From Sphaerisporangium album (GTDB lineage Bacteria > Actinomycetota > Actinomycetes > Streptosporangiales > Streptosporangiaceae), in contig NZ_QOIL01000026.1 of the NCBI RefSeq assembly GCF_003323745.1, positions 1 through 64,000 of the forward strand: a DNA stretch of 64,000 nt. The letters are read 5' to 3'. This document shows, piece after piece, positions 29,460 through 33,143 of this stretch (within the stretch, counting starts at the first letter, position 1; every line of letters begins with the position of its first letter). The notes under the pieces were generated by a model that did not search any database, had not been told where the DNA came from, and saw only the letters and a program-made list of their open reading frames with translations. The position numbers were made by a program, and so were the translations under genes.

Positions 29460-30422
29460 CTACGGGATCAGCAGCAGCTTGCCCGTCGTCCGGCGGCCTT
29501 CGAGGTCGTCGTGCGCCTGCCTGGCCTCGGCCAGCGGGTACCGGCGCGAGATGTGCACGTTGAGCGCGCCCGACTCGACCCACCCGAGGACGTCCTCGGC
29601 CCGGGCGAGCAGTTCCTCCCGCGTCGCGGTGTAGTGCGCGAGCGTGGGCCTGGTCAGGAACAGCGACCCGCCCTGGTTCAGCCGCTGCGGGTCGAACGGC
29701 GGCACCGGCCCGCTCGCCGCCCCGTAGAGCGCCATCATGCCGCGCAGCCCGAGCGAGGCCAGGCTGCCGTCGAAGGTCGCGGCGCCGACGCCGTCGTAGA
29801 CGACGCGCACGCCGCGCCCGCCGGTCAGCTCGCGCACCGCGTCGGCGAAGCCCTCGTAGGGAATGACGTCGTCGGCCCCCGCCTCGCGGGCGAGCTTCCG
29901 CTTCTCGTCGGTGGAGGTCGTGCCGATGACGCGGCCGCCGCGCAGCTTCGTCATCTGCGTGAGCAGCAGCCCCATGCCGCCCGCGGCCGCGTGGACGAGC
30001 ACGTCGTCTCCCGGCTGGACGGCGTGCACCGAATGGGTGAGGTAGTGGGCGGTCAGGCCCTGGAGCAGGACGGCGGCGGCCGACTCGAACGACAGGTCGT
30101 CGGGAAGCGGGATCGCCTTGGCGGCAGGGATGACCGCCTTCTCCGCGTACGACCCGATGACGCCCACCCAGCCCACGCGGTCGCCCACCGCCACGCCGGT
30201 GACGTCCGGGCCGACGGCCGAGACCGTGCCCGCGCCCTCCGAGCCGACGACGAACGGCGCCTGGAGCGGGTAGCGGCCCTCGCGGTGGTAGACGTCGGTG
30301 TAGTTCACACCGATCGCGGCCACGTCGACCAGCACCTCACCGGGGCCCGGGACCGGGTCCGGCACCTCGGTGTAGACGAGGGCGTCGGATCCTCCTGGGG
30401 TCGTGACGACGATGGCATGCAT
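29460..30422 (-). CDS. NADPH:quinone oxidoreductase (zeta-crystallin type)
   Basis: A 320-residue zinc-independent medium-chain dehydrogenase of the QOR family, which reduces quinones with NADPH. The GroES-like N-terminal domain holds NYTDVYHREGRYP (about 40-52), and the Rossmann domain has the nucleotide motif AAAGGMG (about 146-152). Zinc-binding cysteines of alcohol dehydrogenases are absent. Length is normal. It is divergent from the GH1-LacI gene with a 258-base shared upstream region; whether regulation is shared is not known. Confidence 0.9.
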   Translation of the reverse strand: MHAIVVTTPGGSDALVYTEVPDPVPGPGEVLVDVAAIGVNYTDVYHREGRYPLQAPFVVGSEGAGTVSAVGPDVTGVAVGDRVGWVGVIGSYAEKAVIPAAKAIPLPDDLSFESAAAVLLQGLTAHYLTHSVHAVQPGDDVLVHAAAGGMGLLLTQMTKLRGGRVIGTTSTDEKRKLAREAGADDVIPYEGFADAVRELTGGRGVRVVYDGVGAATFDGSLASLGLRGMMALYGAASGPVPPFDPQRLNQGGSLFLTRPTLAHYTATREELLARAEDVLGWVESGALNVHISRRYPLAEARQAHDDLEGRRTTGKLLLIP

Positions 30423-30613
30423 GACGGCGGCTCCTTCGACGCGGACGGCCTCTTGATCGTCCCCAACCTCCGGCCGCCCACTCCTTGTTCCCCCGGCGCA
30501 CCTCGTTCGCCGAAAAATTCGCTGGTTCCTAGCGTCATGTCCACTGCACGGACATAGCCGGATCCGTGATTAAGTGTTCGAATCGGTGCTGGTACGGCCA
30601 CCCGCACCGCGGT

Positions 30614-30655
30614 TTCACCACTGATTCACCACTGATTCACCACTGCGTCACCACG
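30614..30655 (+). promoter_or_regulatory. 11-bp phased repeats before the GH1-LacI gene, candidate operator
   Basis: TTCACCACTGA is repeated at 30614, 30625 and 30636 (last base changed), followed by a partial copy GTCACCACG at 30647. The 11-base period is close to one helical turn, so bound proteins would sit on one face of the DNA. The array ends 25 bases before the start codon. Its role as operator for the fused LacI domain is an inference. Confidence 0.5.
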
Positions 30656-30680
30656 AGGGGACAGACGGGAGCGTCATGCA

Positions 30681-33143
30681 ATGACCGCGACCACCATCGC
30701 GAACCGGGGGCAGACGCTGGCCTTCCCCGCCGGCTTCGTCTGGGGCTCCGCCACCGCCGCCTACCAGGTGGAGGGCGCCGCCCGCGAGGACGGGCGCGGC
30801 GAGTCGATCTGGGACACCTTCTGCCGCAGGCCCGGCGCCATCGCCGGCGGCCACACCGGCGACACGGCGTGCGACCACTACCACCGGTACGCCGAGGACG
30901 TCCGCCTGATGAAGGCGCTCGGCCTCGCCGCCTACCGGTTCTCGGTGGCCTGGCCCCGCGTCCAGCCGGACGGCTCCGGCCCGGTCAACCCCGCCGGCCT
31001 CGACTTCTACGAGCGGCTGGTCGACGAGCTGCTCGCGGCGGGCATCGCGCCGTACGCGACGCTCTACCACTGGGACCTGCCCCAGGCGCTGGAGGACCGC
31101 GGCGGCTGGACCGCCCGCGACACCGCCTACCGGTTCGCCGAGTACGCCACGGCCGTCCACGACCGGCTCGGCGACCGCGTGAACACGTGGATGACCGTCA
31201 ACGAGCCCTGGGTGTCGGCGTTCCTCGGGTACGGGATGGGCGTGCACGCCCCGGGCCTGACCTCGTCCGTGGACGCCTTCCGCGCCTCCCACCACCTGCT
31301 CCTCGCGCACGGCCTCGGCGTCCAGGCGCTGCGCGCCGGGGGAGCCCGCGAGATCGCCCTCACCCTCAACCTCGCCCCCGTGGTGACGCCCGCCCAGGTG
31401 AACGACCCCGGCCTCGCGCTGTCCCCGGCGGACGCCGAGGCGGTGGACCGCGTCGACTGCCTGATCAACCGGCAGTTCCTCGACCCGGCGCTGCGCGGCG
31501 CCTACCCGGAGCAGGTGCTGAAGATCGTCGACCGGATCGCCGGGCTCGACCACATCCACGACGGCGACCTCGCCGCGATCCACCAGCCGATCGAGCTGCT
31601 CGGCATCAACTACTACACCCCGTGCGTGGTGAGGTCCGGCCCCGGCCTGCCCGCAAACCCGGCGTACCCGGGCACCGAGGACATCGAGTTCCCCGGCGCC
31701 TACGCCCCCACCACCGCGATGGGCTGGCCCATCGTCCCGACCGGCCTGTCCGAGCTGCTCGTCCGCCTGTCGCGCGACTACCCCGAGGTCGGCCTCGTGG
31801 TCACCGAGAACGGCGCGGCGTTCGACGACACGGTGTCGGGCGACCGCGTCCACGACGCCGACCGCACCGCGTTCCTCGAAGGCCACCTGCGGGCCGCGCA
31901 CTCCGCCATCGAGGCCGGCGCCGACCTGCGCGGGTACCTCGTCTGGTCACTGCTGGACAACTTCGAGTGGGCCGAGGGGTACAACAAGCGCTTCGGCATC
32001 GTCCACGTCGACTTCGGCACCCAGCGCCGCCTGCTCAAGGACAGCGCGCTGTGGTTCCGCGAGCTCGTCCAGCGCAACGGCCTGCGCAAGGATCGCGCCC
32101 GCCGGCCCACCCTGGAGGAGGTCGCCGCCCGCGCCGGGGTGTCCCGGTCGACGGTCTCGCGCGTGATCAACGGGCAGGGGACGGTCAGCGGCGAGGTCCG
32201 CGAGACCGTCATGCACGCCGTGGACGAGCTCGGCTACGTGCCCAACTCGGCGGCACGCAGCCTGGTGACCCGGCGCACCGACACGATCGCGCTGGTCGTC
32301 CCCGGCACCCAGGCCACCGGCGAGGACCCGCTGTTCTCCTCCGTCGTCCGCGCGGCCGCCCATGCCCTGGAGGAGGCCGGCAAGCAGGTCACCCTCATGC
32401 TGGCCGGGTCGCCGGCGGGACGCCGGCGGGTCGAGCAGTACGTGTCGGCGGGTCACGTGGACGGCGTCGTGCTCGTGTCCAACCGCGCCGCCGACCACCT
32501 GCCGGGCGTGCTGTCCCGCACCGACACCCCGGTCGTGTCGCTCGGACGGCCCGCCGGATCGGCCGCGCTGCCCTACGCCGCGGGCTCGGCCGCCCTGCCG
32601 TACGCCAAGCCGGCGGGCGGCGCGCTCTCGTACGTCGACGCCGACAACGCCGGCGGCGCGGCGGCGGCCGTCGATCACCTGCTCGCGCGGGGACGGCGCC
32701 GGATCGCCATGATCTGCGGGCCCGTCGACAGCGTCGCCGCGCAGGACCGCCTGCAGGGGTACCGCGACGCGCTGCGCCGCGACGACCGCCGCTCGATCCT
32801 CGCCGTGGGCGACTACAGCCGCGTGTCCGGCATGGAGGCGATGCGCCAGCTCCTGGAGGACGACCCGGCCCTGGACGCGGTCTTCGCCGCGGGCGACCTG
32901 ATGGCCATGGGCGCCCTGACCGTCCTGCACGAGTCCGGCCGCCGGGTCCCCGACGACGTCGCCGTGGTCGGTTTCGGCGACATCGAGGCCGCCCGCTACG
33001 CCATGCCCCCGCTCACGACCGTCCACGCCCCCGCCTCCGACCAGGCCGTGGCCGCCGTCCGCCTGCTGCTACGCCAGATAGACGCCGGCCCGGCCTCTTC
33101 AGTGATCCTCCCCACCGAACTGGTGGTCCGCCGCTCGTCCTAG
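30681..33143 (+). CDS. GH1 beta-glucosidase fused to a LacI-family regulator
   Basis: An uninterrupted 820-codon frame. Residues about 10-460 form a complete GH1 glycosidase: acid/base Glu in TVNEP (about 173-177) and nucleophile Glu in VVTENG (about 373-378), with the usual WSLLDNFEWAEGY and C-terminal KDSALWFREL. At about 473 the frame passes directly into a LacI helix-turn-helix (TLEEVAARAGVSRSTVSRVI, about 476-495), the YVPNSAARSL hinge and a complete periplasmic-binding-type sensor domain (about 525-815). No ATG, GTG or TTG lies at the junction, so the repressor cannot easily be made alone. The sensor domain has an unusual duplicated GSAALPYA loop (about 628-647). GH1 enzymes hydrolyse beta-glucosides such as cellobiose. 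ATG 30681 has GGGAG upstream. The fusion is the odd feature; usually these are two adjacent genes. Confidence 0.9.
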   Translation: MTATTIANRGQTLAFPAGFVWGSATAAYQVEGAAREDGRGESIWDTFCRRPGAIAGGHTGDTACDHYHRYAEDVRLMKALGLAAYRFSVAWPRVQPDGSGPVNPAGLDFYERLVDELLAAGIAPYATLYHWDLPQALEDRGGWTARDTAYRFAEYATAVHDRLGDRVNTWMTVNEPWVSAFLGYGMGVHAPGLTSSVDAFRASHHLLLAHGLGVQALRAGGAREIALTLNLAPVVTPAQVNDPGLALSPADAEAVDRVDCLINRQFLDPALRGAYPEQVLKIVDRIAGLDHIHDGDLAAIHQPIELLGINYYTPCVVRSGPGLPANPAYPGTEDIEFPGAYAPTTAMGWPIVPTGLSELLVRLSRDYPEVGLVVTENGAAFDDTVSGDRVHDADRTAFLEGHLRAAHSAIEAGADLRGYLVWSLLDNFEWAEGYNKRFGIVHVDFGTQRRLLKDSALWFRELVQRNGLRKDRARRPTLEEVAARAGVSRSTVSRVINGQGTVSGEVRETVMHAVDELGYVPNSAARSLVTRRTDTIALVVPGTQATGEDPLFSSVVRAAAHALEEAGKQVTLMLAGSPAGRRRVEQYVSAGHVDGVVLVSNRAADHLPGVLSRTDTPVVSLGRPAGSAALPYAAGSAALPYAKPAGGALSYVDADNAGGAAAAVDHLLARGRRRIAMICGPVDSVAAQDRLQGYRDALRRDDRRSILAVGDYSRVSGMEAMRQLLEDDPALDAVFAAGDLMAMGALTVLHESGRRVPDDVAVVGFGDIEAARYAMPPLTTVHAPASDQAVAAVRLLLRQIDAGPASSVILPTELVVRRSS

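Follow-up and report, generated by a model that had tools for sequence, protein, structure and literature searches.

A conserved GH1 beta-glucosidase and LacI repressor fusion gene in several genera of the Streptosporangiaceae

The fused gene, its product and its distribution

The window, a 64,000-nucleotide stretch of the Sphaerisporangium album genome (contig NZ_QOIL01000026.1, positions 1 to 64,000), carries a fused GH1 beta-glucosidase/LacI repressor gene at 30681..33143 (+). The gene opens with an ATG at 30681, ends with a stop at 33141-33143 and comprises 820 codons, with an RBS-like GGGAG (30667..30671, +) located by sequence reading 9 nt 5' of the ATG. Open-frame translation yields a protein of 820 aa and 87.5 kDa with zero internal stops. 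The GH1 domain spans residues 14-467 (30720..32081, +) and is recognised by Pfam PF00232 (531.4 against a cut-off of 22.6), by the GH1 beta-glucosidase model TIGR03356 (593.4 bits against 478.5) and by its match in sequence and fold to PDB 1gnx. It is followed by a linker of about eight residues (468-475; 32082..32105, +), delimited by the spacer length across the best 120 homologues, and by a LacI helix-turn-helix (HTH) at residues 477-522 (32109..32246, +), assigned by PF00356 and by its invariant R489 and R494. The sugar-sensor (ligand-binding) domain, residues 534-820 (32280..33140, +), was assigned by PF00532 and PF13377, includes a Peripla_BP_3 match over residues 664-820 and is distinguished by faster divergence. 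PF00356, PF00532 and PF13377 all exceed their cut-offs, as a LacI HTH and sugar-binding domain should, and the HTH begins at residue 477, after the GH1 domain, instead of at the N-terminus as is usual for LacI/GalR proteins. The first-pass annotation had described one 820-codon frame joining the two proteins; this frame is indeed open across the junction, and its Pfam and TIGRFAM domains are complete.

Both catalytic glutamates are present, as that annotation had also stated: Glu175 in the NEP motif (31203..31205, +), which we take to be the acid/base, and Glu376 in the TENG motif (31806..31808, +), presumably the nucleophile. With these residues intact, the GH1 half is predicted to hydrolyse beta-glucosides. 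The Streptomyces sp. GH1 beta-glucosidase 1gnx is the best match by fold and ranks second by sequence (55% identity over 460 columns), and the match stops where the repressor starts. All 50 matches listed by the fold search were GH1 chains, which carry no information on domain arrangement. The nearest solved sequence for the other half is the LacI-family regulator PDB 5ysz, presumably CelR of Thermobifida fusca, whose alignment covers residues 1-345 of the 346 in this half and which has no enzyme domain. An AlphaFold2 model of the full chain reached a mean pLDDT of 78.2, with a pTM of 0.60 that does not give the arrangement of the domains; in this model a helix stops at residue 465 and the first HTH helix starts at residue 478. 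The duplicated GSAALPYA loop noted earlier in the sensor domain is real, although it proved private to the window protein: the second copy lies inside a 19-residue insert identified by alignment (residues about 632-650; 32574..32630, +), which is missing from the other 33 homologues printed in the alignment and overlaps a region of pLDDT below 50 (residues 624-647).

A homologue search scored 7996 sequences, 7985 of them above threshold, and the best 120, including the query, were listed. The full-length search for the same GH1-LacI order suggested by the first reading gave a uniform answer, as all 120 are fused alike, run through the junction uninterrupted and keep both glutamates. Because the open junction recurs in the 119 other members of this set, it goes beyond chance. 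Source names among the best 120 include Sphaerisporangium, Streptosporangium, Nonomuraea, Microbispora and Microtetraspora. The HTH and sensor domains were recognised in 40/40 members chosen from this set for scanning; another of the 120, P0087 (660 aa), is without the sensor domain. The fusion is real, conserved and common to several genera.

The spread of the gene within the family was surveyed using residues 440-540 as query against 297 genomes, counting uninterrupted frames that were long and spanned the full query; matches beyond those listed were all weaker than any fused row. The fused gene was found in 68 of the 297 genomes, the window's own included, and spans 11 genus groups of one family: g4 (34/38), g1, the window's own (9/11), g86 (9/15), g6 (7/16), g82 (3/4), and 1/1 in each of g10, g13, g21, g50, g59 and g72, the g21 copy sitting at a contig end. 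This count omits two frames, of 377-378 residues, in G214 and G103. At least 19 of the 68 genomes also hold, among the matches listed, a full-span pair interrupted by a stop. In a sample of 394 genomes drawn from the class, six uninterrupted, full-span long frames occurred among the matches listed (E up to 1e-22), all from the window's own family, and no independent origin of the fusion was seen. The titles and abstract openings of the open-licence papers searched yielded no description of a GH1-LacI fusion, and no mention was found in the portions available of PMC3377646 and PMC4052901.

Separate gene pairs and the origin of the fusion

The expectation that these two genes are separate neighbours elsewhere was borne out by 18 GH1/LacI pairs (loci L081-L098), in eight of which the ATG immediately follows the stop; the remaining pairs have longer or differently framed spacers. 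In the codon alignment, codons 472-473 of the window gene (CGC GCC; 32094..32099, +) are colinear with the stop-ATG of these eight pairs. The separate pair at L084 reads GAA TGA ATG AGA CGA CCC ACG CTG GAG across the junction; in the same columns the fused gene at L073 reads GAG CGC GCC AGA CGC CCC ACC CTG GAG, and the window gene reads GAT CGC GCC CGC CGG CCC ACC CTG GAG. Across the best 120 homologues, the former stop position is occupied by Arg in 105, and the former start position by Pro in 71 and by Ala in 29.

Trees of the two halves compared 21 fused rows with 39 separate rows (GH1) and 36 separate rows (LacI), omitting L017, a second copy of L098, and the second L069 repressor. In both, the 21 fused rows fall on one side of one branch, with 98% (GH1) and 100% (LacI) of 200 bootstraps. 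The GH1 tree nests the fused rows within the separate genes, with support of 99/95. The midpoint root of the LacI tree lies between the fused and separate groups, so nesting is not shown there. A single origin would be the simplest reading. By the same trees, the stop/start pairs in fused genomes are judged to be paralogues, since the fused rows group apart from them, and they are thus no indication that a base is missing. Separate genes in relatives, with a stop and a start at the junction, had been named as part of a possible refutation of the fusion, and such relatives do exist.

The fusion is old and inherited. It arose from a neighbouring pair of genes, for an intracellular GH1 beta-glucosidase and a CelR/CebR-type LacI repressor, of the kind found at the end of an ABC-transporter operon, when the stop and start codons that separated them were lost. 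The colinear codons and the tree grouping show this origin; a duplication and the order of the steps are probable additions to it. Four of the separate-pair loci (L082, L083, L086 and L087) contain a second GH1/LacI pair facing the first, and in three of these four the two repressor genes lie end to end.

Operator boxes, upstream regions and genome context

Gene neighbourhoods were drawn with a home-made gene finder, and members were assigned by clustering except where confirmed by Pfam. A solute-binding-protein cluster (c1) lies upstream in 15 of the 18 separate-pair loci, most with permease clusters as well; Pfam confirmed a solute-binding protein and two binding-protein-dependent permeases at L088 and a solute-binding protein at L097. 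Each of these 15 operons bears AGAGAGCGCTCTCT-type palindromes ahead of its first gene, with 36 sites in total. This layout and these boxes match the putative cellobiose operons of Streptosporangium roseum (Sros_7169-7173) and Thermobispora bispora (Tbis_0838-0842), in which, according to the accessible part of PMC3377646, an ABC transporter, a beta-glucosidase and a LacI gene stand together and boxes of the form GGAGAGCGCTCTCC or AGAGAGCGCTCTCT are reported upstream, ahead of Sros_7173 and Tbis_0842. The genes of these operons are probably the same as those of the separate pairs described here; unlike the fused gene, they are separate genes inside a transporter operon (PMC3377646, same part).

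The window's own genome contains 35 perfect places of GRGAGCGCTCYC, and allowing up to one mismatch gives 181 places versus 123 for the reversed control. The regulon was sketched from nine frames picked by eye at 15 of the 35 perfect places, which comprise a GH6/CBM2 protein, a GH3 enzyme, an alpha-fucosidase and a solute-binding protein (one each), four F5/8-type proteins, one of them also with DUF1996, and one frame without a match. The GH6 and solute-binding frames adjoin the GGGAGCGCTCCC form of the box. The same genome holds, on contig 18 (L097), a GH1-LacI-LacI row with three perfect boxes upstream of its operon.

The surroundings of the fused gene differ. Within about 14 kb around each of 21 fused genes, the solute-binding and permease clusters c1, c2, c3 and c28, which do occur beside separate pairs, are absent, and the neighbours vary between genera across the 21 loci. 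By these four clusters, the location beside a sugar ABC transporter typical of CelR/CebR-type genes is not found, and the fused gene now stands outside a transporter operon of the parent kind. Pfam was run on six flanking proteins of the window. The gene 3' of the fused gene encodes a Mut7-C RNase-domain protein, and upstream lies a divergent zinc-binding-dehydrogenase-family gene (29460-30422, -; Pfam ADH_zinc_N); neither appears to point to a sugar operon.

The CelR/CebR-type box present ahead of all 15 separate-pair operons is likewise missing from the fused genes. None of 21 fused promoters contains it, the best scoring 9.1 bits against a minimum of 20.9 among the 15 operons, and a scan of the window allowing up to two mismatches returned zero matches in 30423-30680. 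The fused promoters score at background level, with a median of -4.7 bits versus -4.1 for 840 random stretches from the same loci. About one of the 21 would be expected above the 95% background level and five lie there, among them two near-identical relatives; this hints weakly at altered own sites. A search for a fused-gene operator through palindromes, shared words and a profile found nothing consistent across genera, and the upstream words common to several of the closest relatives belong to the divergent dehydrogenase gene, as its start and promoter. When the upstream search was extended to 20 more fused genes, 16 starts were located; TGAGCGCTCA occurs near the start in 8 of the 9 g86 fused genes read (six located, plus L076 and L078) and in 0/3 of those in g82 and g59, a hint that it may be an altered own site in this one lineage.

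These results bear directly on the earlier proposal that the protein is a self-regulating sensor enzyme, which binds its own promoter at 30423-30680 and is released when its sugar substrate or product acts on the LacI pocket. Control of the own gene is frequent among LacI regulators, the HTH and sensor remain recognisable in every member scanned, and the weak partial box matches in five promoters would fit such a scheme. The absence of the family box from all 21 promoters, the assignment of the shared upstream words to the dehydrogenase gene and the drift of the pocket residues described below all speak against it, and control of its own promoter, as first proposed, is not upheld. Product or substrate control through the old LacI pocket is the weaker reading because the box is absent from own promoters and the sensor residues have drifted, and we consider self-regulation unlikely, if still arguable.

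Two further features were observed in the upstream region of the window gene. A GGAAC-N19-GTT motif at 30462-30491 (-), ahead of the divergent dehydrogenase-family gene, resembles a SigR-type stress promoter, and GGAAC-N18/19-GTT occurs upstream in seven of the eight loci scanned (L001 and L061-L066; not L067). Three direct repeats, two copies of CACCACTGATT and one of CACCACTGCGT, occupy 30616-30648 and were not seen in the upstream regions of relatives.

Divergence after fusion and proposed function

The halves of the fused protein have not diverged equally. R489, R494 and L528, which we take to correspond to LacI positions 17, 22 and 56, are identical in 118/118 fused and 119/119 separate repressors (P0025, P0087 and P0240 were left out of this comparison), so that the CelR/CebR-type recognition residues are conserved after fusion; position 490 is Ala or Ser in fused repressors. 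The sensor behaves differently. Residues 738 and 766, by motif presumably the sugar contacts N246 and D274 of LacI, are N and D in all 119 separate repressors; in fused ones N738 is kept in 13/118, D766 in 85/118 and both in 13/118, and R690 is retained in 117/118. The window protein has Gly738 and Gly766, where 5ysz has Ser and Asp.

As a single search supplied the 119 separate repressors, whose diversity is below that of the fused set, a comparison was made within seven genomes holding both forms, giving 21 non-independent genome pairs. The ratio of sensor to enzyme divergence is 1.83 in fused and 1.07 in separate forms, and higher in the fused form in 21/21 pairs. For the HTH against the enzyme, the two forms have the same ratio, 0.61. 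The fused form is the less conserved one in 19/21 pairs for the sensor, 13/21 for the enzyme and 12/21 for the HTH. Raw pN/pS across ten fused genes was 0.21 in the hinge, 0.25 in the HTH, 0.36 in GH1, 0.50 in the linker and 0.54 in the sensor. Since residues fixed in separate repressors have been lost, the response of the fused sensor to the parent inducer has probably been changed or weakened. The retention of D766 in 85/118 and the Ser at position 738 of 5ysz mean that these pocket changes are no proof of lost sensing, against which the kept R690 and the sensor domain recognised in 40/40 members scanned also speak.

Such a pattern might also be expected if the protein were simply a beta-glucosidase dragging a tolerated, decaying repressor tail. 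The sensor does diverge faster than in separate pairs, and in one fused gene (L080, G306) the repressor half is only 42.6% identical, shows sensor gaps and follows a shorter linker, although the start of its HTH is kept. A vestigial tail is nonetheless quite unlikely, given that the HTH is held, relative to the enzyme, as tightly as in separate repressors, that its pN/pS is the lowest apart from the hinge, that the three DNA-contact residues are invariant and that the sensor fold is recognised throughout the members scanned.

The reading that we favour, with a probability of about 0.5, is that a conserved fusion of a neighbouring gene pair produced a glucosidase-repressor with altered sensing, which would control a beta-glucan/cello-oligosaccharide regulon in trans. 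The product would be one 87.5 kDa chain, in which a predicted glucosidase precedes a LacI repressor with unchanged DNA-contact residues. This chain would most likely still bind AGAGAGCGCTCTCT-type boxes in trans and not its own promoter, the shared HTH being the single feature from which trans binding is deduced. The predicted targets are those of the unfused repressors, both operons and genes for secreted polysaccharide degradation. CebR mediates control of cellulase production by cellobiose. Laboratory tools such as GFP-LacI show that LacI tolerates a partner at its N-terminus; a GH1 domain ahead of the HTH is thus no necessary obstacle to DNA binding. In T. fusca, cellobiose regulates the production of cellulases through CelR, according to the part of PMC3377646 available. 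The weakest step of the proposed mechanism is the last one, in which the fused protein might serve as a shut-off device, one molecule both occupying the boxes of the regulon and destroying the inducing beta-glucoside.

A different arrangement can be envisaged in which the GH1 active site took over sensing, the LacI pocket having decayed to a dimerisation scaffold and beta-glucoside occupancy signalling via the short linker to the HTH. This is improbable; if true, an enzyme that still works as a catalyst would double as its own allosteric sensor of the inducer.

If both activities hold, the glucosidase-repressor would work like a trigger enzyme. In the trigger enzymes PutA and BirA and in the MocR/PdxR regulators, one chain binds DNA and also contains an enzyme or an enzyme fold. 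To our knowledge, none of them joins a glycosidase to a LacI repressor. BzdR, as described in the available part of PMC3602430, also combines enzyme-like and DNA-binding domains in one chain; it carries the DNA-binding domain at its N-terminus and its shikimate-kinase-like part has become inactive, whereas the fused protein has intact catalytic residues and a LacI sensor domain in addition. Enzyme-regulator fusions are already known, and the joining of a glycosidase to a full LacI repressor in 11 genus groups, and in at least 19 of the 68 genomes alongside an unfused paralogous pair, represents a clean natural experiment. Because the former stop and start codons are still readable, the effect of tethering an inducer-destroying enzyme to a repressor can be asked directly, together with the question of why the sensor was freed while the DNA-contact and catalytic residues were held.

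The fusion would matter little if the repressor were also made alone, through internal translation or proteolysis. SD-like letters near the old junction in 10/21 fused genes, although uninformative, and an in-frame GTG at codon 462 in some relatives could be taken in that sense. The window gene, for its part, has no in-frame ATG, GTG or TTG between codons 385 and 487, the latter already within the HTH, and the repressor is left without an obvious start of its own, in agreement with the earlier remark that it is not easily translated alone. Met is found at the former start position in 0/120 best-listed homologues, and the linker is short and nearly constant in length, with six residues between L468 and R475 in 118/120 homologues and seven in two. 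A free repressor is accordingly very improbable. A sequencing or assembly error joining two genes, for which the existence of separate paralogues is the only argument, is ruled out by the 119 other best-listed homologues, from many sources and species, that share the open junction.

The two short frames in G214 and G103 (L099:6418-7542 and L100:6407-7534) encode separate-type repressors with about 45 extra residues, mostly GH1 tail. Their promoters bear a GGGAGCGCTCTC box, the old stop reads CAG and the ATG is kept, and they look like deletion remnants.
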